Positions 780-11,076 of a stretch of 57,539 bases of DNA are shown one piece after another. Every line of letters starts with the position of its first letter. Within the stretch, counting starts at the first letter, position 1. Below the pieces are notes generated by a model. That model saw only the letters and a list, made by a program, of their open reading frames with translations, was not told the DNA's origin and made no database searches. Where the stretch lies: positions 1-57,539 of the forward strand of contig JACNJL010000049.1 in assembly GCA_014382585.1 (NCBI GenBank). Reading direction: 5' to 3'. The translations under genes were made by a program, and so were the position numbers. The DNA is from Limisphaerales bacterium. Lineage in GTDB: Bacteria; Verrucomicrobiota; Verrucomicrobiia; Limisphaerales; UBA1100.

Positions 780-3700
780 TTACTTCACTTGTTGAATTTG
801 GACGCCCCGGTTGCTGCCGCGGCGGAAGGTGTCGTAGCCTTGCCAGTTTCCGCGCTGGATGATGCCGTTTTGGTTTTGCAGATTTTGCTGGTAGTTGAGG
901 CCCTTTGTTTTGGTGGCGGGTTTGGGCCGGGGTTGGCCGCCGGTGGCCCGTGCGTTGCCGAGAGGTTTTTTGCCGCGATAAAAAGCGTAGCGATTTTGGT
1001 CGTCGCGGGCGATGACGGTGGCAGTACCGTTGAGGCCATCGCCGACGAAGATGCCGCGCAGATCGGTTTCGCCATCCTTGAAGATGCTGTCGCTGCTGCC
1101 AATGGCTTTGACGTGCACACCGGCAACGTATTTTTTGGCAACCATATCGCGGACGTTGGCGCGAATGCGACCACTGACGACATCCTCCTGCACTTCGACT
1201 TTCAGTGGCGTGACGAGCACGAGCGCGCTGGTGAAGAGATCGTCACCGCGACAAATAACCAAATACGCGCCGTCTTTTTTTACGGCGAGTTTGGCGGCCT
1301 TTTCTTTGTCGATGTAATCCTTGCCGTCGCCGAGAATCACGGTGGTTTCGAGCAGCGGCGCGATGCCGGCGAGGCTTACCTGGGTGATTTTGGAGAGATT
1401 CTTTTCGCGCAAATAAAGTTTCATCAAATCCACGCGGTACACCTGCAAATAGGCTTCCTTGATGTTGCGATATTTTAGCGTGAGTTCGACCGGCTTGCCG
1501 GGGCGGAAGATGTTGACCTCTTCGAGCTGAATGCGTTTTTCTTCGAAATAATCGATGGCCTGTTTGGCGTCGGGATACTGCGCCTTCACCTTGGCGTACC
1601 ACTCGATCGCCTTGGCGGCGTCGCCTTCGGCGTGGTGGATTTGGCCAATAATATATTCTGCAAAACTCTTGTCCTTGCTTTTGCCGATGGCCACAGGCTC
1701 GGCGGCTTTGAGGGCATTGGCGTGGTTGTGTTTCCAAAAATGACCGAGCGCGATCATATATTGATAGCCGCTGGAGAATTCGCTCTCGGGGAAACGCTCG
1801 GTGAATTGCCCGCAGGTTTTGATGACGAGATCGTATTGCTTCAAATCCAGTAACGCGTTGGCCATTGAAAATGCGGCGTCATCGGCCAATGGGTTTTCCG
1901 GATGCAACGTCATAAAACTCTGCAACAACCGAATCGTCTCGCGCAGCATCGCGATGCGTTCGGGCTTGCGCTCAGCTTGGCGCACCGGTTTGCCGCCGCG
2001 CATAATGGCGACGTTGCGTTCCTGCGCGGCGAGCTGATGCGCGGTGGGCGCTTTGAGATAGAGCGCTTGGCTGATGGAAAAAAACATGCTTCCGGCCTCG
2101 GCGGTATCCGGGTATTCGCGCCAGAGATCTTCCTGATAATCGATGGAGCCGAGAAACTGCCCTTCATCCTCGAGCACGGCGCTGACGTTGACGTCATTGA
2201 TGAAGCTCGCATTGATGGTGGCGCGGAAGACGAGATACGCGCGCTCGAATTCGCCCAAGTCGCGATAGGCGCGGCCGACGATCAGGATTTTATCAAACGG
2301 AATTTCCAGTGACGGATACCGCTCGCGCAGCACCTCGAAGACTTCGATCACTTGCGCGGCGTCGTAGCGGTCTTTGCTCGTGTAAATCCACAGCAACATC
2401 CGGCACACATTCTGTTCGGAGTAGCCGCGGTTTTTCTTTCGCAATGCGGCGAGATGATTCAATGCCTCGGCGTAGTTGCCATCCGCGAAATTCAAACTGC
2501 CGAGCTTGAGGTGCTCCGCGTCGTTGAGCGTGTACACATCGTCGGAAGCTTCACCCGGCGCGAGCACCGTGAGCGTGGCCGCGCTGCCGATGCGCATCCG
2601 GCTGGTGTTCACCGCATCGCGAATCACCGTGGGCAAGGCGCGATATTCGCCGCTCGCGTAGCCGATGAGTTGATAACTAAAATCATTCGCCGTGTGGCCG
2701 GTTGGGAAATACATTGTGATTTTGTTCCCATCAATTTCATGGTGCTTATGACTGCCGCTTATTGAACCGTCCACAAGCATCATCCCGGCCGGCAGATATT
2801 CTTCCACCACTTTGTAGCCGCGAAAATCGCGTGAGGATGAGTAGTGCGTGAGATCCACATTCACGCGCACGCGCTGGCCGATTTCGATGTGCTTCACCTG
2901 CGTGCTGCTGTTTACGCCGATGGATTTGCCGCGATACTCCAGCGGCATATGATAAAACCGACGCGAGCCGACAGCCGGATACGTCCACGATTTGGGGTCC
3001 ACCAGATTTTTGGAAAAGCCGCGCAGCGAAACTGCGTAGGCAAATTCGCCGCGGCCGTTCAGGCGGAAGTCCACCGAATTTTCGCCATCGGCCAATAGTT
3101 CCGTGGGCACCGCAAGCGAGATGCTTTGGCTGTTACCCTTTACTTTGAGCGTTTCAAATTTTTTGCCGTTCACCAAAATTGTCAGCTCATAATCGTCCTC
3201 GGCGAATTTCCCTTTTGCGTAAAATTCAGCCAACGCGGCCACCGCAGTGCCGCGCGCTTTGGCGGCGGCAAAGCCGTATGCGCCCCGACGATTGAGCAGA
3301 TAATCGATGAGCCCCTGAATTTCATTGGCCGCCGGACGCGCCCGCATAAATGCCAGCGCGGCGAGCGCGGTGGTTTCGGTTTCCTCGCTGGTCCACGTGT
3401 TGTTGCGTACGCCGATGCAGTTGAGCAGCGTTTTGTTACCGACCTTGGTTGACGCCAGTTTTTGGGCCAACACATCGAGCAATTCACCGGCAAATTCTTT
3501 GCGATCCAAATTCACAAACGCCAGCGCCGTGTACGCCAGTGCGGGGGCGCTCAGCGTATTCCGCTCGCGGTGAAGCCGATTGGCGTGCGCGAATTCCGCC
3601 GCTTTGTTGACCGATAACGCGTGGAGCAAAACCGCCTTCGCATCGTTATCGCGCGCGCCGAGTCGCGTGAATTGCGTGCGCAAAAAATTCTGTGCCTTGT

Positions 3701-6700
3701 TGATGGTATCCGCATGCACGGGAATGCCTGCATTACGTGCGGCGCACAGGGCCCAGAAGGAAGTGGCCGTGACGCCCCAGTGCGAGCCGGCACCGCGCGC
3801 GCGCCACACCCAGCCACCGTCGCGTTCTTGGCTCACCACCAGTGAACCGGTCAACGTGCGGATGCGATTGCCCAGTCGGTTCAACTCTGTGGGACTGGCC
3901 TTGGCTTTGCGCGCAAATTCCAGCGCGCTCACCGCGGCTAACAAATCGCTGCCTGTAAACCCGCCAATGCGCTGCGGTTCGGTGATCCAATAACGCCGAT
4001 TGCCGCCGCCCTTGGCCCACGGCGTAATGGCGTTGCCGAGCGCCATATCGATCACCGATTGTTTCATACTCGGTCCCACCGTGATGGTCATCCACTGTGA
4101 ACCATCGCGGCGGTTGGCCGGCAGTGCTACCTTTGCCGTGGCATCGCCCTTGGCAACGCCGCCCTGTTGCGCGGTAAACTCTAGCCCCCACGGGCGCACG
4201 GGATACGTGCGTGCCAATGTGTCCGCGTGGTCTTCGCCGCCGGTGGCGGTGAGTTCCAATCGCACTGTGGCGCTCATTGGAATTTTGATGGCTTCGAGTA
4301 GGACTTCCGCACCGTTTTGTTTGGTGACCTTCACCGCGGCCTCGCGCGTGGCCAGCACTTGGTCAAACTTTTCGCCACCCAACAACCGCAGCGTGAGCGT
4401 CACGTCGCCTTCGTAGTCGGTGAGATTATGCACGCGCCCGAGCACGCGCAGCGAGTCACCCTCCTGCAACCGTGCGGGCGCTTTGAGGCTCACGAAAAAA
4501 TCCTGCCGCGTCACCACATTGGCCGTGGCTTGACCGACAAGTGTTTGCACCGTGACCCCGCGCGCGGTGAGCCGCCAATCGCTGGCGCTGCTTGGCAGCG
4601 TGAATTTCACGGTGGCATGGCCTTTGGCATCCGTCACCACCGCCGGCAGCCAATGCCCCGCACCGGCCATCTCGCGTCGGATGACGGGATCTACTGCCTC
4701 GCCGCCCCCATCGCCATCCCCATTTAAATCTCCCAAACGGCCGGCAAAAAAAATGTTGTTTTTTATGCCGTCCGAATTGAATGAGAGACTGTGCCGCCCC
4801 GCGGCAACAGCATTGGGAAATGGAAAGAAGCCGGAAGGATTGTTCCCTTTTTCGCCGCCCTTACCGGCCATCCCGCCTAGACCATTTCCAAATCCGCCGC
4901 TTGCGAAGCCGCCTGCGACGGGGGTGGGCATAGACGCCGGTCCGGAAGATAATTTATTGCCTCCGGTTATTGGCATTGTCGGCTGGGGCCTCTGTTGGCC
5001 TTCCTGTGCTTTTTTTAATGACTCGCCCATTTCGTTGCTGAGCTGCGGGCGACCGAGGGCCAGTTGTTGTTCCTGCAGTCGCTTGGTGGCGATGGTGAGT
5101 TGTCTGCGCTCTTTGTCTTTGCGCTCGAGGCGTGCGGCTTCGTCGAGGAGTTCCTTGAGCACTTTGCGGGTGATGGCAGTGTACTTAAAGCCGTTGGAGC
5201 TGTGGATGTGAAAATCCGATTTGCGTGTGGCATCTTTTTGGAAAAAATCGCGGATGGCCGGCGTGCCGTCGCCGTAGAGCGCGTAGAGCGCCTCATCCAC
5301 CAACGCAAGGCTCAGCTCGCCTACGACGGGTTTGCCGAGTTGATCGGTGACCGTAATTACCACCTCGGCTTCGGCGGCGGGATCGTAGGTTTTTTGTTTG
5401 GGTTTCACCGTCACATTGAGTTGGCGTTCCACGCGGAAGCCGCGCTGGGCCACGCGCAGTTTGCGGTCGTCCATGGCGGTGACGCACGCGGTGAAGTTCG
5501 GGAAGTGCACGTGATCCACATCGAGATCGAGATTGTTGAAGCCTTTTTTCAACGCCACCACGCGATGTTCAATAATGGAATCGCCTTCAAAGGTAAGCAG
5601 CGCCAGGCTGCCCTCGAGGCGCGAGTGCAGCCGCAGCTTGGCGGCGGCGCCGACTTGCAGCGTGTCGGTATCGGCAAAGAAGCGCAGCTTGGTGGCGTCT
5701 TCCTCATCGGAAATGCGCACGATGCCTTCAGCGGTGACGGTCTGTTCAAAGCGATCCTCGCCCGCCACGCGGAGTACATAGGAGCCGCCTTTCTTGAGCG
5801 TGAGCCGCACGGTGCCTTTGCCGGTCTTGGGATCCGTGGTGATGTTGTATTCCTCGATAGTGGTTTCTTCTACGCGTTGTACGATGGCCGGTCGGCTGGG
5901 CAGCGCGTTGAGGATGGGATTGGGCTTGGCAAGTTGGCGTTGCAACACGAGCAGCGTGAGTTCTTTGCCGACCGGTTTGCCGTCGGGCGTTTTGGTGGTG
6001 ACGCTGACATCGAAAGGCTCGCCCGCGAGCATCAGCGGTTGGCTCGGTGCGACGGTGGCGGTAAAGCCTTCGCGTGCCAAAAAAGCGTTGTGGACGGACT
6101 GCACATTTTCGCCATCGATGGAAACGGTGAAGCGCAGCGTCGTGCCGGCTTGGCCGCCGGAGGTGTCGTACTTCACTTTGAGTTCGCCGGTGGCATCGGT
6201 CTTGGCGATGAGATGCCGACCATCGGGGAGGTAGTAGCTGATGGTTTTGTCCGCTACGGGTTGGCCCCAATAATATTCGGCTTTGATGGTGAGTTCCACG
6301 GTTTCGCCCCGGAAATAAACGGAGCGATCGGTCTCGAGTTTGAGGCGGATTTTTTCCAGTTGAAATTTCTGCACGACAAAGGTGCTGGAATAGGCGATGG
6401 CCGGATCTGCTTTTTCGCGTGCGGTGAGGGTGTAGTTGCCAAGCGCGGCGCGGTCATCGAGTCGCAGTTGCGAGTGGAACGTGCCGAACTTGCCGAGCTT
6501 CTGTTCCGTTTCCCAAATCAAACGGCCCGCCGCATCCTTGACGGATACAAGATAGACTTTGCCCTCGGGCGCGGTGTACGCGCCGTCCTTCACATCGCGA
6601 ATGATGCCGCGCAGTTTGATGGCCTCGCCGGGCTGATACGCCGGGCGATCGGTATACAGATACCCCTTCGCCGCGAGGCTGGTGCCAAACTGCAGCCCCG

Positions 6701-7298
6701 TGAGGCCGACGAGATTCGCCGCCACGTGGCCGTCGGCAATCGCAAACGCGCGCAGGTTGCCGTCGGTTTTGAGCTCTTTGTATTTGCCGCGAAACACACC
6801 GTCCTTTTCGGTGGTGCCGGTGGCGAACACTTTTTTGCCGTCGCTGAACAGCACTTTCACATCAGCGGCCGGCTTGCCAGTGCGGCGGTTTTCCACAAAC
6901 ACCAACGCCTCGCTGCGGGAGCTTTTGAGAATGAGGTCGAGGTCGCTGCGGATGACCAGCGTGGTGGCTTCAAAATCATGGTTGCTGACATTAATCAAAC
7001 ACACTCCCGCCTTGCCTTTTTCATTCGCGAAGGGCACGTCAATCGTCTGCTGACTTGGCCGGTAATCGGCGTAGTCGTCGATCTCCACTTCCCACGTTTT
7101 ATCCGGCTCGATGAGCGCGATGTCGAGGTGATCGATATTGCCGATGGCGTGCGTCTTGCGGAAGTACGCTTCGAGGTCGAGGAAGTATTGCTTCACCGTC
7201 ACCTTTTTGATATTGCGCGAACTGAGCTTCACCGTTGCCGCTTCGCTCGTGCGAAACTTGCTCTCAGTTTGCAACACCAACGAAGGCTTGGTCATCAT
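780..7298 (-). CDS. Giant alpha-2-macroglobulin-like protein with MG, TPR and duplicated beta modules (probable 3' part of a split gene)
   Basis: This is a 2172-residue macroglobulin-family protein. Residues 1-650 hold MG/MG2-type domains (for example GYLYTDRPAYQPGEAIKLRG near 220). Residues about 700-740 are a charged helical linker, and about 780-820 are Gly/Asn-rich where family members carry a bait region. An MG7-like segment with WLPAVVTDAKG lies near 883. A helical TED-like domain spans about 1096-1366 but shows no CGEQ thioester motif. TPR-like helices at about 1600-1900 are followed by a second copy of the RNIK beta module at about 1930-2100, and the tail is Asn/Gln-rich. The listed ATG at 7298 has no Shine-Dalgarno sequence and no signal peptide. 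It lies just 3' of a GC tract where the TPR frame upstream ends. I infer that the true product begins in the upstream TPR gene. The likely location is the periplasm or outer surface. Thioester-less family members are thought to act as non-covalent or structural macroglobulins. Confidence 0.85.
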   Translation of the reverse strand: MMTKPSLVLQTESKFRTSEAATVKLSSRNIKKVTVKQYFLDLEAYFRKTHAIGNIDHLDIALIEPDKTWEVEIDDYADYRPSQQTIDVPFANEKGKAGVCLINVSNHDFEATTLVIRSDLDLILKSSRSEALVFVENRRTGKPAADVKVLFSDGKKVFATGTTEKDGVFRGKYKELKTDGNLRAFAIADGHVAANLVGLTGLQFGTSLAAKGYLYTDRPAYQPGEAIKLRGIIRDVKDGAYTAPEGKVYLVSVKDAAGRLIWETEQKLGKFGTFHSQLRLDDRAALGNYTLTAREKADPAIAYSSTFVVQKFQLEKIRLKLETDRSVYFRGETVELTIKAEYYWGQPVADKTISYYLPDGRHLIAKTDATGELKVKYDTSGGQAGTTLRFTVSIDGENVQSVHNAFLAREGFTATVAPSQPLMLAGEPFDVSVTTKTPDGKPVGKELTLLVLQRQLAKPNPILNALPSRPAIVQRVEETTIEEYNITTDPKTGKGTVRLTLKKGGSYVLRVAGEDRFEQTVTAEGIVRISDEEDATKLRFFADTDTLQVGAAAKLRLHSRLEGSLALLTFEGDSIIEHRVVALKKGFNNLDLDVDHVHFPNFTACVTAMDDRKLRVAQRGFRVERQLNVTVKPKQKTYDPAAEAEVVITVTDQLGKPVVGELSLALVDEALYALYGDGTPAIRDFFQKDATRKSDFHIHSSNGFKYTAITRKVLKELLDEAARLERKDKERRQLTIATKRLQEQQLALGRPQLSNEMGESLKKAQEGQQRPQPTMPITGGNKLSSGPASMPTPVAGGFASGGFGNGLGGMAGKGGEKGNNPSGFFPFPNAVAAGRHSLSFNSDGIKNNIFFAGRLGDLNGDGDGGGEAVDPVIRREMAGAGHWLPAVVTDAKGHATVKFTLPSSASDWRLTARGVTVQTLVGQATANVVTRQDFFVSLKAPARLQEGDSLRVLGRVHNLTDYEGDVTLTLRLLGGEKFDQVLATREAAVKVTKQNGAEVLLEAIKIPMSATVRLELTATGGEDHADTLARTYPVRPWGLEFTAQQGGVAKGDATAKVALPANRRDGSQWMTITVGPSMKQSVIDMALGNAITPWAKGGGNRRYWITEPQRIGGFTGSDLLAAVSALEFARKAKASPTELNRLGNRIRTLTGSLVVSQERDGGWVWRARGAGSHWGVTATSFWALCAARNAGIPVHADTINKAQNFLRTQFTRLGARDNDAKAVLLHALSVNKAAEFAHANRLHRERNTLSAPALAYTALAFVNLDRKEFAGELLDVLAQKLASTKVGNKTLLNCIGVRNNTWTSEETETTALAALAFMRARPAANEIQGLIDYLLNRRGAYGFAAAKARGTAVAALAEFYAKGKFAEDDYELTILVNGKKFETLKVKGNSQSISLAVPTELLADGENSVDFRLNGRGEFAYAVSLRGFSKNLVDPKSWTYPAVGSRRFYHMPLEYRGKSIGVNSSTQVKHIEIGQRVRVNVDLTHYSSSRDFRGYKVVEEYLPAGMMLVDGSISGSHKHHEIDGNKITMYFPTGHTANDFSYQLIGYASGEYRALPTVIRDAVNTSRMRIGSAATLTVLAPGEASDDVYTLNDAEHLKLGSLNFADGNYAEALNHLAALRKKNRGYSEQNVCRMLLWIYTSKDRYDAAQVIEVFEVLRERYPSLEIPFDKILIVGRAYRDLGEFERAYLVFRATINASFINDVNVSAVLEDEGQFLGSIDYQEDLWREYPDTAEAGSMFFSISQALYLKAPTAHQLAAQERNVAIMRGGKPVRQAERKPERIAMLRETIRLLQSFMTLHPENPLADDAAFSMANALLDLKQYDLVIKTCGQFTERFPESEFSSGYQYMIALGHFWKHNHANALKAAEPVAIGKSKDKSFAEYIIGQIHHAEGDAAKAIEWYAKVKAQYPDAKQAIDYFEEKRIQLEEVNIFRPGKPVELTLKYRNIKEAYLQVYRVDLMKLYLREKNLSKITQVSLAGIAPLLETTVILGDGKDYIDKEKAAKLAVKKDGAYLVICRGDDLFTSALVLVTPLKVEVQEDVVSGRIRANVRDMVAKKYVAGVHVKAIGSSDSIFKDGETDLRGIFVGDGLNGTATVIARDDQNRYAFYRGKKPLGNARATGGQPRPKPATKTKGLNYQQNLQNQNGIIQRGNWQGYDTFRRGSNRGVQIQQVK

Positions 7299-9006
7299 CG
7301 CTACGCGCGCGCGCGCTGCCGGCTTTGCTGCCCCAGGTGAGCTTGCGGTAGGCCTCCAGCGCGGCGGTGAGGTCGCCCTGTTTTTCCTCGTAAATCAACC
7401 CGATGCGATAGAGCGCTACTGAGCTTTCTTCCGTGCCCGGATATTTGCTCACCAGCCGCTGCCACTCAGCGATCGCTTTGCCGTAGGCCTCCGCCACGGC
7501 CTTGTCCGCGCCGTCGGCTTCTTCCAAATCCACGGCAGTTTGAAACGTGATTTGGCCAAACAGAAACAGAATCCGCGCCGCGCGACTGTCCAACGGATTA
7601 GCCGTCAAAAACGCCTCAAACAATTTACGCGCCTTCGCATATTCCTTTGCCTCCACCGCATCCATCGCCACCTGATATTGGCCGTTGATAATGCCGCGCT
7701 GGCAGTTGGCCCACTGCGGGCCGTCCGGATATTTGTTGATATAACTTTGGAACGTCGCCGAGGCTTCAGTGTATTTCTTTTGGCCAAACCGAATTTGCGC
7801 CACCTGATGCAGCGCTTCTTTTTCCCACGTATCCTGTAGCTTGGCCGGCGTGCCGCCATTGACGGGGATCGTCGCCGTCAACGCATCGCCCGCGGGGAGC
7901 TTGTGATTTTTCTTGGCGATAAAATCATTGTACGCCGCGATCGCATCATCCGAACGCCCCACGCGATGGTAAGCCTGCGCGATCCACCACGCAGCGTACA
8001 CCGCGCGCGGGTCGTCCGTGTGCTGTTTAAGGAAATTGCGCGCCGCCTTGATGCCTGGCTCCAGTTCGTGCGCGGTTGCGTTCGGCATTCGATATGTGTT
8101 GATGATCGACCACCGCGAATCGGCCACCAACTTTGCCTGCGCGTCGTCGGCCTTTTGTGCGGTGATGAGCTTCAGTAAATCCTCCAGATTCACGCGGCCC
8201 TGCGGCAATTGATTCGCCTTCAACTGCGCCTCGGCCAAATGATACCGCGCCGCCAGCGGATGTTTTCCGGCCGCGGCGGGATTTTCTTTTTTCATTCCAC
8301 TCGCCCGCGCTGCGCTGCCCACCGGCCCCATCCAGTCCGGATCGAACTCCACAAGGTATGCGCGGAAATCTGTGATCGCCTGCGTTGGATTATTTGCCTG
8401 TTGAATCGCCCGCGCTTTTTTGAACATCACTGCATCACGCAGGTCGCGTCCGATCTCCATCGCCAGCGCTTTGTTGTATAAATTGTACGCCTTGGCAAAA
8501 TTCGGCGGCGGCGCTTTCAAGTCATCCTTCGCCGGTTTCTTCGCCAGCGCGTCGGCAAAGTGAATGATCACCCCCGCGACATCCTGCTTACGCGCCGCCG
8601 AAAGCAGCCGCGTGGCCTCCGCGTTGTACACCGCCTCGGCGCTCTTGTAATCGCGCTTCTGCACAAACGCGTTGGCCTTGAGGAACCGCCCCTTGTGGAG
8701 CCACACTGATTTTGGATGATGCGCCGCCAACCGCCCCAACGTGCCAATGCAATCGTCGTAAAGTTTCCCGTGATACTGCGCCAACGCCTTCAAATAAACC
8801 GCCTCATCCGCGCGCTTGCCCTTCGCGGCCACGGCCTTATCCAGCGCCGCCACCGCCGCCGGATAATCCTTCGCCCGCAACGCCGCTTGGCCTGCTTGCA
8901 GATTGGGATCCACCTTGGGTGCTTTGGCCGCTTTCGGAGCCGCCCCCGCAGACGCAAACCACGCGGAACAAATGAGAGAGAGGGAAACTAGATGCAATGT
9001 TTTCAT
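7264..9006 (-). CDS. Exported TPR protein (probable 5' part of the macroglobulin gene)
   Basis: The start is the ATG at 9006, giving MKTLHLVSLSLICSAWFASA, a clear Sec signal peptide. The longer frame to 9102 adds unrelated residues before it and was rejected. The rest is about 550 residues of tetratricopeptide-type helical pairs (for example YPAAVAALDKAVAAKG, FPESEF-like spacings, LTAALEAYRKLTWGSKAG). The frame passes through a 13-bp GC tract (7304-7316) and ends 12 codons later, overlapping the macroglobulin frame by 35 bp. One additional GC unit would join the two frames directly. The internal TPR-to-beta-module boundary of the macroglobulin protein has the same arrangement and almost the same spacing, so I infer one original protein of about 2740 residues. 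If the two products are really separate, this one would be a periplasmic TPR scaffold. Confidence 0.8.
   Translation of the reverse strand: MKTLHLVSLSLICSAWFASAGAAPKAAKAPKVDPNLQAGQAALRAKDYPAAVAALDKAVAAKGKRADEAVYLKALAQYHGKLYDDCIGTLGRLAAHHPKSVWLHKGRFLKANAFVQKRDYKSAEAVYNAEATRLLSAARKQDVAGVIIHFADALAKKPAKDDLKAPPPNFAKAYNLYNKALAMEIGRDLRDAVMFKKARAIQQANNPTQAITDFRAYLVEFDPDWMGPVGSAARASGMKKENPAAAGKHPLAARYHLAEAQLKANQLPQGRVNLEDLLKLITAQKADDAQAKLVADSRWSIINTYRMPNATAHELEPGIKAARNFLKQHTDDPRAVYAAWWIAQAYHRVGRSDDAIAAYNDFIAKKNHKLPAGDALTATIPVNGGTPAKLQDTWEKEALHQVAQIRFGQKKYTEASATFQSYINKYPDGPQWANCQRGIINGQYQVAMDAVEAKEYAKARKLFEAFLTANPLDSRAARILFLFGQITFQTAVDLEEADGADKAVAEAYGKAIAEWQRLVSKYPGTEESSVALYRIGLIYEEKQGDLTAALEAYRKLTWGSKAGSARARSDDDQAFVGVAN
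7304..7316. repeat. GC dinucleotide tract at a frame boundary
   Basis: A 13-bp alternating CG tract (6.5 units) sits exactly where the TPR reading frame and the macroglobulin frame would have to be joined. In the coding direction the TPR frame reads through it as Ala-Arg-Ala-Arg and ends 12 codons later. Inserting two bases (one more GC unit) gives a continuous fused frame. The tract is therefore either a slippage site, a real mutation or an assembly error. Confidence 0.85.
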
Positions 9007-9148: not shown

Positions 9149-9174
9149 GAGGGTTTCGGAGAAACCGCCCTACC
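9149..9174. repeat. REP-like palindrome, family 1, half element
   Basis: A single palindrome with core GGTTTCGGAGAAACC followed by GCCCTACC. It matches the second half of the 54-bp element at 9644-9697 over 23 bases. It lies at the 3' end of the RAYT gene and supplies that gene's TAG stop (inside GGTAGGG on the minus strand). Confidence 0.85.
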
Positions 9175-9613
9175 CACCGCGGTGAATCCATTTCCAATCC
9201 TCAGGCTGATCACACAGTTTTTTCCGAACCGGATTCATCAAAATGTATGTCGCCTTTGTTTCCAATTCATCGGTATTGCGAAGCCGGTGATCAAAGAAAT
9301 CCCGTTGCCATTTTAGGCCGACCTGTTGAGCAAGGTATCGTTTCCAATTGCCGATGATCTGCTTTATCCCCGTTTCACGCGAAAAAGAAAAAATGCCGTG
9401 CAAATGATCGGGCATCAGCAACAAAAGATGGCAAATCCATTGATGGGATTGCTGATAATGATCGGCCGAGGAGAAAATGATTTTTCCAATCTCGTCGTGG
9501 CATAATTGATTCGTGCCCCGTTGCTGGCAGCAGATGGTGATGAAATACTTTTCGCCATCCGGAACCCACCCGGGAACTTGATGGGGAAGTTGTTTGCGAG
9601 CAGTAAACGACAT
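9170..9613 (-). CDS. REP-associated tyrosine transposase (RAYT, Y1_Tnp family)
   Basis: A protein of about 147 residues of the IS200-like Y1 transposase superfamily. The catalytic HUH motif is seen as MPDHLHGIF, preceded by the strand YFITICCQQRG, and the typical C-terminal segment KATYILMNPVRKKLCDQPEDWKW is present. Chosen start: ATG at 9613 (MSFTARKQ). An alternative TTG at 9634 would add seven residues. RAYTs are single-copy domesticated transposases that cut and move REP palindromes as single-stranded DNA. Here REP-like palindromes flank the gene on both sides (9149-9174 and 9644-9697), and the stop codon lies inside the downstream copy, which is the classic RAYT arrangement. The usual catalytic Tyr should fall in the C-terminal helix, and KATYILMNPVRK contains the candidate. 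Confidence 0.9.
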   Translation of the reverse strand: MSFTARKQLPHQVPGWVPDGEKYFITICCQQRGTNQLCHDEIGKIIFSSADHYQQSHQWICHLLLLMPDHLHGIFSFSRETGIKQIIGNWKRYLAQQVGLKWQRDFFDHRLRNTDELETKATYILMNPVRKKLCDQPEDWKWIHRGG

Positions 9614-9643
9614 TGGCAATTCCCATTCCCGCAAGGCGCCTAA

Positions 9644-9697
9644 GGTAGGGCGTGCTCTCCGAGCGCGCCGTGGCGGTTTCGGAGAAACCGCCCTACC
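9644..9697. repeat. Paired REP element (BIME-like), family 1
   Basis: A 54-bp element of two head-to-head palindromes: GGTAGGGCGTGCTCTCCGAG followed by the GGCGGTTTCGGAGAAACCGC half, ending CCCTACC. Both outer ends are GGTAGGG/CCCTACC inverted repeats. It separates the RAYT gene from the 3' end of the Sel1-repeat gene. Confidence 0.9.
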
Positions 9698-9698
9698 A

Positions 9699-10958
9699 TC
9701 ATTTCAGTAGTCGCGGATTCTTTTCAATCATCTCCTTGACCATGGCTTCGGCTTTGGCGAGTTGTTCGGGGGTTAAGCGCTTCATGAGGAATTCTTTGCC
9801 CTGCTTGGATTTCTTATCTCCGTTGGTTGCGGCAATGACATTCCACGCATAGGATTTCAAGAAATCTTTCTCAATACCAAATTGGCCCGAATAATAAATA
9901 TTCGCAAGAAGTCCCTGTGCGTCGGGGTTTCCATTTTCCGCTGCTTGTTGCAGCAATTTAAATCCTTTGCCTACGTCCTTGCCTATTCCAAAAAGCCCAG
10001 CCAGATATGATTGCGCAAGCATAAATTGAGCAATGGGGTCCCTTTGCACGGCTGCGGTGCGAATCAGGCTAATTCCGCTTTCAATGTCTTTCTCTACACC
10101 CTCTTGACCTGTCAACAATACTACACCAAGCATGGATCGCGCCATCGCAGGTCCTTGTTTTGCTGAGGCGCGCATCAGTGCAAGGCCCTTATCTATGTCC
10201 TTTTCCACACCAGAAGCTAATGACAATTCCTCGAATAAATAAGCAGTTCCAAGAACAAACATTCCGAGGGGGCTTCCTTGTATAACGGATTCCTTTAAAT
10301 GCTGCATCCCTTTTGCCACGTTTTTCTCCAAGCCCAGCTCGCCCTCTTTCTGCAACGCTCCAATTACCGCCTTGGCATTTGGCAAGTTTTGGTTCGCGGC
10401 TTTGCGAAGCCACTTCAGCGCCTCCTTTTCATCTTTCTTCACTCCCCTTCCACTATGGTACATGTCGCCAATCGCACTCTGTGCTTCAGGCAAATCCTGC
10501 TTTGCTGCTTTCAGCTTCCATTGAAATGCCTCACTGTAGTTTCTGTTAACGCCTCTTCCGTATCCATACATTTGGCCTAAACAGTATTGGGCATAGGCAT
10601 TTCCCTGTTTGGCCAAGGCGCGCAATCCGGGCGCGGCTTCCTTGTACAGCACTTCAGCTTTTTCCGTGTCTTGCGGGATGCCCACTCCGGCGAAGTGGGC
10701 AGAAGCAACGTGATATTTAGCGATGAGGTTGCCTTGTTTGGCTGAACGGGATGCCCACTTATAGGATTCGATTCTGTCCACCTTCACCCCTTTTCCCCAG
10801 TAGTAGAAATTGGCCAGTCGAGCCTGAGCCTCGGCATCGCCCTTTTCCGCCAAGGCCAAGAGTGATTTGAAATCCTTTGGCAAGGGGGTGGCCTTGTCCG
10901 CGCCAAGTGCGGGCATGACCAGAATGAGGCTTAGTAGATAAAGGGAGAATTGCTTCAT
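9699..10958 (-). CDS. Exported Sel1-like repeat protein
   Basis: The ATG at 10958 gives MKQFSLYLLSLILVMPALGAD, a signal peptide. Frame-open codons upstream to 11102 run back through the REP element and are not coding. The mature protein of about 400 residues is almost entirely Sel1-like repeats, alpha-solenoid units of about 36 residues recognised by A-x-x-x-L-G/A-x-x-Y-x-x-G-x-G-V-x-x-D patterns. Examples are ANFYYWGKGVKVDRIESYKW, GQMYGYGRGVNRNYSEAFQW, GDMYHSGRGVKKDEKEALKW and ANIYYSGQFGIEKDFLKSYA. Sel1 solenoids are usually protein-interaction scaffolds, and no enzymatic domain is seen. The gene is bracketed by inverted copies of the same 54-bp REP pair. Its AT content is somewhat higher than that of its neighbours. 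Likely periplasmic; partner unknown. Confidence 0.85.
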   Translation of the reverse strand: MKQFSLYLLSLILVMPALGADKATPLPKDFKSLLALAEKGDAEAQARLANFYYWGKGVKVDRIESYKWASRSAKQGNLIAKYHVASAHFAGVGIPQDTEKAEVLYKEAAPGLRALAKQGNAYAQYCLGQMYGYGRGVNRNYSEAFQWKLKAAKQDLPEAQSAIGDMYHSGRGVKKDEKEALKWLRKAANQNLPNAKAVIGALQKEGELGLEKNVAKGMQHLKESVIQGSPLGMFVLGTAYLFEELSLASGVEKDIDKGLALMRASAKQGPAMARSMLGVVLLTGQEGVEKDIESGISLIRTAAVQRDPIAQFMLAQSYLAGLFGIGKDVGKGFKLLQQAAENGNPDAQGLLANIYYSGQFGIEKDFLKSYAWNVIAATNGDKKSKQGKEFLMKRLTPEQLAKAEAMVKEMIEKNPRLLK

Positions 10959-11022
10959 GCCCAAATTAAAGCGCACCCATTGCAGGGTGTAAATTATTTT
11001 CCTAATTGAATACCGCTGTTGA

Positions 11023-11076
11023 GGTAGGGCGGTTTCTCCGAAACCGCCTTGGCGCGCTCGGAGAGCACGCCCTACC
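11023..11076. repeat. Paired REP element (BIME-like), family 1, inverted copy
   Basis: A 54-bp element identical at 52 of 54 positions to the reverse complement of the copy at 9644-9697. Only the two central bases differ. It lies upstream of the Sel1-repeat gene and downstream of the aldolase/dehydrogenase gene. Confidence 0.9.

Follow-up and report, generated by a model that had tools for sequence, protein, structure and literature searches.

A frame break beside a CG dinucleotide tract in a giant TPR-macroglobulin gene of a Limisphaerales assembly

Introduction

On the minus strand of contig JACNJL010000049.1 (assembly GCA_014382585.1, a Limisphaerales bacterium of the Verrucomicrobiota), an open reading frame for an exported protein with tetratricopeptide repeats (TPR) meets a second, much longer frame for a macroglobulin-type protein at a tract of alternating C and G. 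Are these two genes, or the two halves of one, and, if they are halves, how has the reading frame been broken? We analysed the whole stretch of 57,539 nucleotides that contains the locus, hereafter designated the window, together with homologues from related and distant genomes.

Results

Layout of the locus and of its joint

The features of the locus are collected in Table 1. The 5' frame opens with MKTLHLVSLSLICSAWFASAG, which by eye is a signal peptide, is matched by the Pfam families TPR_6 (1.4e-21), TPR_16 and YfiO, and ends 12 codons after the CG tract. The 3' frame, matched by MG2 (1.1e-17), A2M (4.2e-15), A2M_BRD (8.4e-14) and bMG3 (1.7e-11) and by TPR at its C-terminus, begins with an ATG lying 5 bases beyond the tract in the coding direction. 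No Shine-Dalgarno-like sequence was found 5' of this ATG (GCAGCGCGCGCGCGCGTAGCGATG), nor a signal peptide in the frame that starts from it. The length of the tract and its distances to the end of the one frame and to the start of the other, all first given by a sequence-only reading of this DNA, were recovered on direct reading, and its remarks on the missing ribosome-binding site and signal peptide also held. The same reading had pointed to a second TPR-to-beta joint within the macroglobulin frame. Counting by hand indeed gave 21 versus 23 residues for the two joints, with the FR...RNIK match present, and the two TPR-beta modules of the gene were detected as duplicates by BLASTP (E 9e-9) and hhalign (probability 98.5%). 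The joint region occurs as a single DNA copy in the window's genome, and no copies of the gene were found in viral contigs.

Table 1. Coordinates of the features at the locus, as positions of the window.
Feature	Position	Strand	Remarks
5' part of the broken gene	7264..9006	minus	Signal peptide and TPR region; 580 codons, with the final 12 out of frame
3' part of the broken gene	780..7298	minus	MG/A2M region and C-terminal TPR-beta module, no thioester; 2172 codons
Overlap of TPR and macroglobulin frames	7264..7298	minus	35 bp
CG dinucleotide tract CGCGCGCGCGCGC at the frame break	7304..7316	minus	13 bp, 6.5 units; read directly
Short (CT)n tract in signal-peptide codons	8974..8982	minus	In frame in the window; two bases off in the sister species G004
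Second TPR-to-beta module, duplicate of the break-spanning module	1188..1877 (approximate)	minus	BLASTP, hhalign
DUF4139-like gene, truncated at the contig end	2..778	minus	Downstream, conserved neighbour

Homologues carry one continuous frame

Ten homologues span the joint, all of them in one open frame, and those that are complete measure ~2,630–2,790 aa; they come from Verrucomicrobiota, with one Planctomycetota and one Poribacteria MAG. The closest, from a member of the same genus (G004; 93% aa identity; contig matched to JAAZZB010000044.1, 'Verrucomicrobiia bacterium isolate bin84o'), is one open frame of 2728 codons, and the TPR part of the window shares 93% aa identity with residues 5–566 of this single 2728-aa frame. 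In G006 (SZUA-1035) the gene is cut at a contig end, yet it is open through the joint, and single frames were found in G007 (2790 codons), in G011, a Lake Baikal Pedosphaera MAG (2771 codons), and in the Poribacteria and Planctomycetota MAGs (2631 and 2682 codons, respectively). A 388-genome sample of the phylum yielded the gene in five further genomes; four of these homologues (G061, G334, G369 and G243) reach across the joint, each in an open frame, while the sequence of the fifth, G351, begins past the joint and so was not counted. None of the ten is split in two at the joint, and hence the fused gene is the ancestral form, from which the window departs. One ancestral TPR-macroglobulin gene, as proposed by the sequence-only reading, is thus strongly supported by the homologous sequences, and the pattern which that reading had set against its own proposal, namely homologues consistently encoded as two genes, did not appear among those spanning the joint. 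Codon alignments place a Met at or beside the position of ATG 7298 in most homologues, internal to their one frame; judged from these alignments, the apparent start of the macroglobulin frame corresponds to a Met within the fused protein that most homologues conserve.

The full-length homologues in the Poribacteria and Planctomycetota MAGs (L055 and L057) show 45–52% aa identity. Most of the sampled Verrucomicrobiota are without the gene, which gives it a patchy spread across phyla.

As for the neighbours of the gene, the downstream DUF4139-like gene was matched by Pfam DUF4139 at 6.5e-6, under the curated cut-off; G004, G007 and G011 have a homologue of it on the contig that carries the fused gene, and in G006 one adjoins the 3' part of the giant gene. 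This neighbour is tandemly repeated in G004 and in G005, and one of the copies in G005 (contig C20, 16095-18140) is split into separate frames. Directly upstream of the broken gene, a small open reading frame (9170-9634, minus strand) resembles a REP-associated (Y1-type) transposase, and the stretch 9155-11023 is unmatched at the corresponding place in G004.

Two bases are missing at the joint, but tract length does not set the frame

The TPR and macroglobulin frames are offset by two missing bases (or one extra base). The joint reads AGC GCG CGC GCG CGT A GCG ATG ATG in the window, AGC GCG CGC GCG CGT GTG GCG TTG ATG in G004 and AAC GCG CGC GCG CGC GTG GCG TTG ATG in G006. The two bases may have been lost either from the CG run or from the adjoining GT pair, the number of steps being equal in both cases. 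Thus, of the earlier claim that one GC unit is missing, the shortage of two bases stands, but the GT beside the tract is an equally possible source. The CG tract measures ~14 bp at the joint of G006 and 13 bp at the open joint of G004, so that the length of the tract by itself does not control the frame. The tract codes for Ala-Arg repeats and is retained only in the three genus members; the codon alignment shows the joint without it in G007 and G011, which belong to two other genera, and it is likewise absent from all distant homologues. With these absences and the 13-bp tract of the intact G004 joint, the tract was discarded as a candidate for a conserved switch element.

Within the window, (CG)5 is observed 5 times versus 1.6 expected, a count of 5 being reached by 5% of shuffles, and the 3.7-Mb genome holds 7 CG tracts of 13 bp, and each of the six besides the one at the joint is embedded in a long open frame. 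CG tracts as a general cause of breaks in this genome were rejected on this ground. The tract by itself is unremarkable, and the frame break at the tract is what counts.

A second frame change in the same gene of a sister species

The 5' end of the gene in G004 is two bases shorter than in the window and in G006, within the (CT)n run of the signal peptide. Its ATG is therefore out of frame and yields a 55-residue nonsense peptide only; a TTG inside the open frame of G004 could serve as the start, with a predicted product lacking the basic N-region. Frame changes at dinucleotide tracts are thus present in two of the three gene-bearing genus members, at different places. This independent break in a sister species is the most useful new fact of the present analysis, although the CT change of G004 may itself be an error.

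The frequency of such changes was assessed by aligning a 336-kb G004 contig to ~325 kb from the genome of the window; 172.6 kb aligned. A survey of split open reading frames in the two genomes was swamped by antisense shadow frames and was replaced by codon-position mismatches and a tract-by-tract alignment. Counted on the window side, the aligned 172.6 kb contain 22 dinucleotide tracts of at least 9 bp, and counted on the G004 side 28; clean frame changes were found at only two of them, the CG joint and the G004 CT tract, both in the giant gene; a third listed change (contig C45) falls in a poorly aligned stretch and was not counted as clean. The giant gene contains four of the eight dinucleotide tracts of at least 9 bp in the window. 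With 4 of the 22 tracts lying in the gene, the probability that both changes fall there is ~0.03, a post hoc figure for a gene-specific argument that draws on two events only. Moreover, few real genes among the ~128 homologous open reading frames of the window's genome and G004 differ in frame. Together with the six intact CG tracts, this argues against an assembly with errors throughout; it does not count against one isolated error.

One of these few genes that differ in frame is a histidine kinase (PAS-HisKA-HATPase), which the window's genome encodes as a single frame of 799 aa (G000 contig C17, 41307-43703) and G004 as two overlapping frames (L051; contig C17, 288597-290992), with a difference of one base.

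Both halves are under purifying selection

Mismatches between the window and G004 are distributed as 135/72/526 over the three codon positions. With G006 as the outgroup, 38 nonsynonymous and 158 synonymous changes fall on the window branch, and 10 and 87, respectively, on the G004 branch (Fisher p 0.064 between branches). Synonymous changes predominate on both branches, each of which is thus constrained, and purifying selection acts on both halves of the gene. No further stop or frame break was found in ~2,700 codons; the break is accordingly recent or, more fully stated, it is young, reversible or not real. The marks of a pseudogene, relaxed selection and further lesions, were not seen, although a very recent knock-out would look alike. 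The gene is missing from four of the seven genus members, three of which have assemblies >90% complete, and is thus dispensable.

The MG2, bait-region and A2M domains score above the curated cut-offs, placing the protein among the bacterial alpha-2-macroglobulins. The thioester motif C-x-E-Q of type I members was absent from the window and from every homologue, which is compatible with a type II bacterial alpha-2-macroglobulin. The signal peptide and the family suggest a role in the envelope.

Discussion

We infer that the break is real rather than a consensus error, and favour, with a probability of roughly 0.6, a recent slippage-type frameshift that has left an OFF or knocked-out allele, its reversibility being set aside. 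The two open reading frames are parts of a single gene, whose predicted product is an exported giant of ~2,740 residues with a signal peptide, a TPR region, an alpha-2-macroglobulin-type body that lacks the thioester, and a TPR-beta module that is repeated. The sampled population would carry a recent indel that breaks the frame at the (CG)n/GT joint, presumably of the type made by replication strand slippage. Ribosomes that begin at the real start would then make no more than a secreted TPR fragment, ~568 residues long and with a foreign tail of 12, and the macroglobulin body would not be exported. The sequence-only reading had offered an assembly error or a phase-variation switch; both remain candidates, but it omitted a recent, ordinary loss of function, which is an equally good fit for a gene that is often absent.

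A consensus or assembly error would mean that the organism has an intact fused gene and that the record lost two bases at the CG tract. Such an error is a possible, if somewhat doubtful, explanation: every homologue spanning the joint is fused, the gene has no other lesion, the CG tract belongs to the longest class of dinucleotide tracts in the sampled part of the genome, and the genome is in 70 contigs and apparently metagenome-assembled. Against it stand the long open frames around the other six 13-bp CG tracts, the want of a clean frame change at other dinucleotide tracts aligned to G004, the small number of real genes besides the giant gene that differ in frame in the aligned sample, and the need for this gene to have been hit again in G004, at another tract. 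That double occurrence, in two species and two dinucleotide tracts of one gene under purifying selection, would fit repeated loss and is also what speaks for phase variation, in which slippage at the CG tract of the interdomain joint and at the CT tract of the signal peptide would reversibly switch the giant exported TPR-macroglobulin of this uncultured genus, the two species having been sampled in different OFF states. Exported proteins are the usual target of such switching, CT repeats in a signal peptide have a precedent in Helicobacter pylori oipA (PMC10564699), and the 6.5-unit CG tract clears the 6-unit cut-off used for Campylobacter (PMC6321876). However, it falls under the 8-unit cut-off for Neisseria (PMC5953494), the 5-unit CT tract of G004 is under both, each of the two species has shown a single allele, the CG tract is unconserved beyond the genus and encodes merely Ala-Arg repeats, and the absence of the gene from four genus members equally suits ordinary loss. 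Reversible switching is therefore unlikely when taken by itself, and its probability is contained in that of the frameshift reading given above.

Two further readings would keep the frames as they stand. If they were real, translationally coupled genes, ribosomes terminating at the TPR stop, 35 bp inside the macroglobulin frame, would restart at its ATG, which the 35-bp overlap of the frames contains. This is very improbable: the ATG is internal to the fused frame, the second frame is without Shine-Dalgarno sequence or signal peptide though its domain family acts outside the cytoplasm, and the two-gene model was rejected since a split homologue was never found. Programmed ribosomal frameshifting, joining the two frames by the required +1 or -2 shift in a repetitive stretch, hardly deserves credence; no homologue changes frame at the joint, a recognised +1 motif is absent by eye at GCG CGC GCG CGT AGC, and the model was discarded for want of a conserved site.

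If the switch is real, on/off switching by repeats, so far known mainly from host-associated pathogens, would also occur in free-living Verrucomicrobiota and act there on a very large envelope protein, and the annotation of such assemblies would be dividing genes of this sort as a matter of routine. If there is no switch, the secreted TPR protein and the leaderless macroglobulin of this genome should still count as one gene, broken or mis-sequenced, and not as two.

Among known systems, the frameshifted genes that GeneTack catalogued in complete prokaryotic genomes (PMC3711429) resemble the present one in having a tandem repeat beside the frame transition in a gene for a surface or secreted protein; unlike these, the window is a single case whose frame transition is not conserved, and unless polymorphic it would class with the pseudogene or error singletons of that catalogue. 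In oipA of H. pylori, CT repeats in the signal peptide switch the gene, with 5CT and 6CT patterns found in both ON and OFF states (PMC10564699), and the frame of the exported protein in G004 is likewise set by a short CT repeat in signal-peptide codons. The break in the window differs in lying far inside the gene, at a CG/GT joint; the bacteria are environmental Verrucomicrobiota, and no variation within a population was seen in them. As to the protein, MagD of Pseudomonas aeruginosa, a type II alpha-2-macroglobulin, traps protease in the periplasm without a thioester (PMC5764988), and shares with the window protein the MG2, bMG3, bait-region and A2M domains as well as the missing thioester. 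In contrast to MagD, the window protein adds ~560 N-terminal TPR residues and a C-terminal TPR-beta module in one polypeptide, and its gene has a DUF4139 gene next door.
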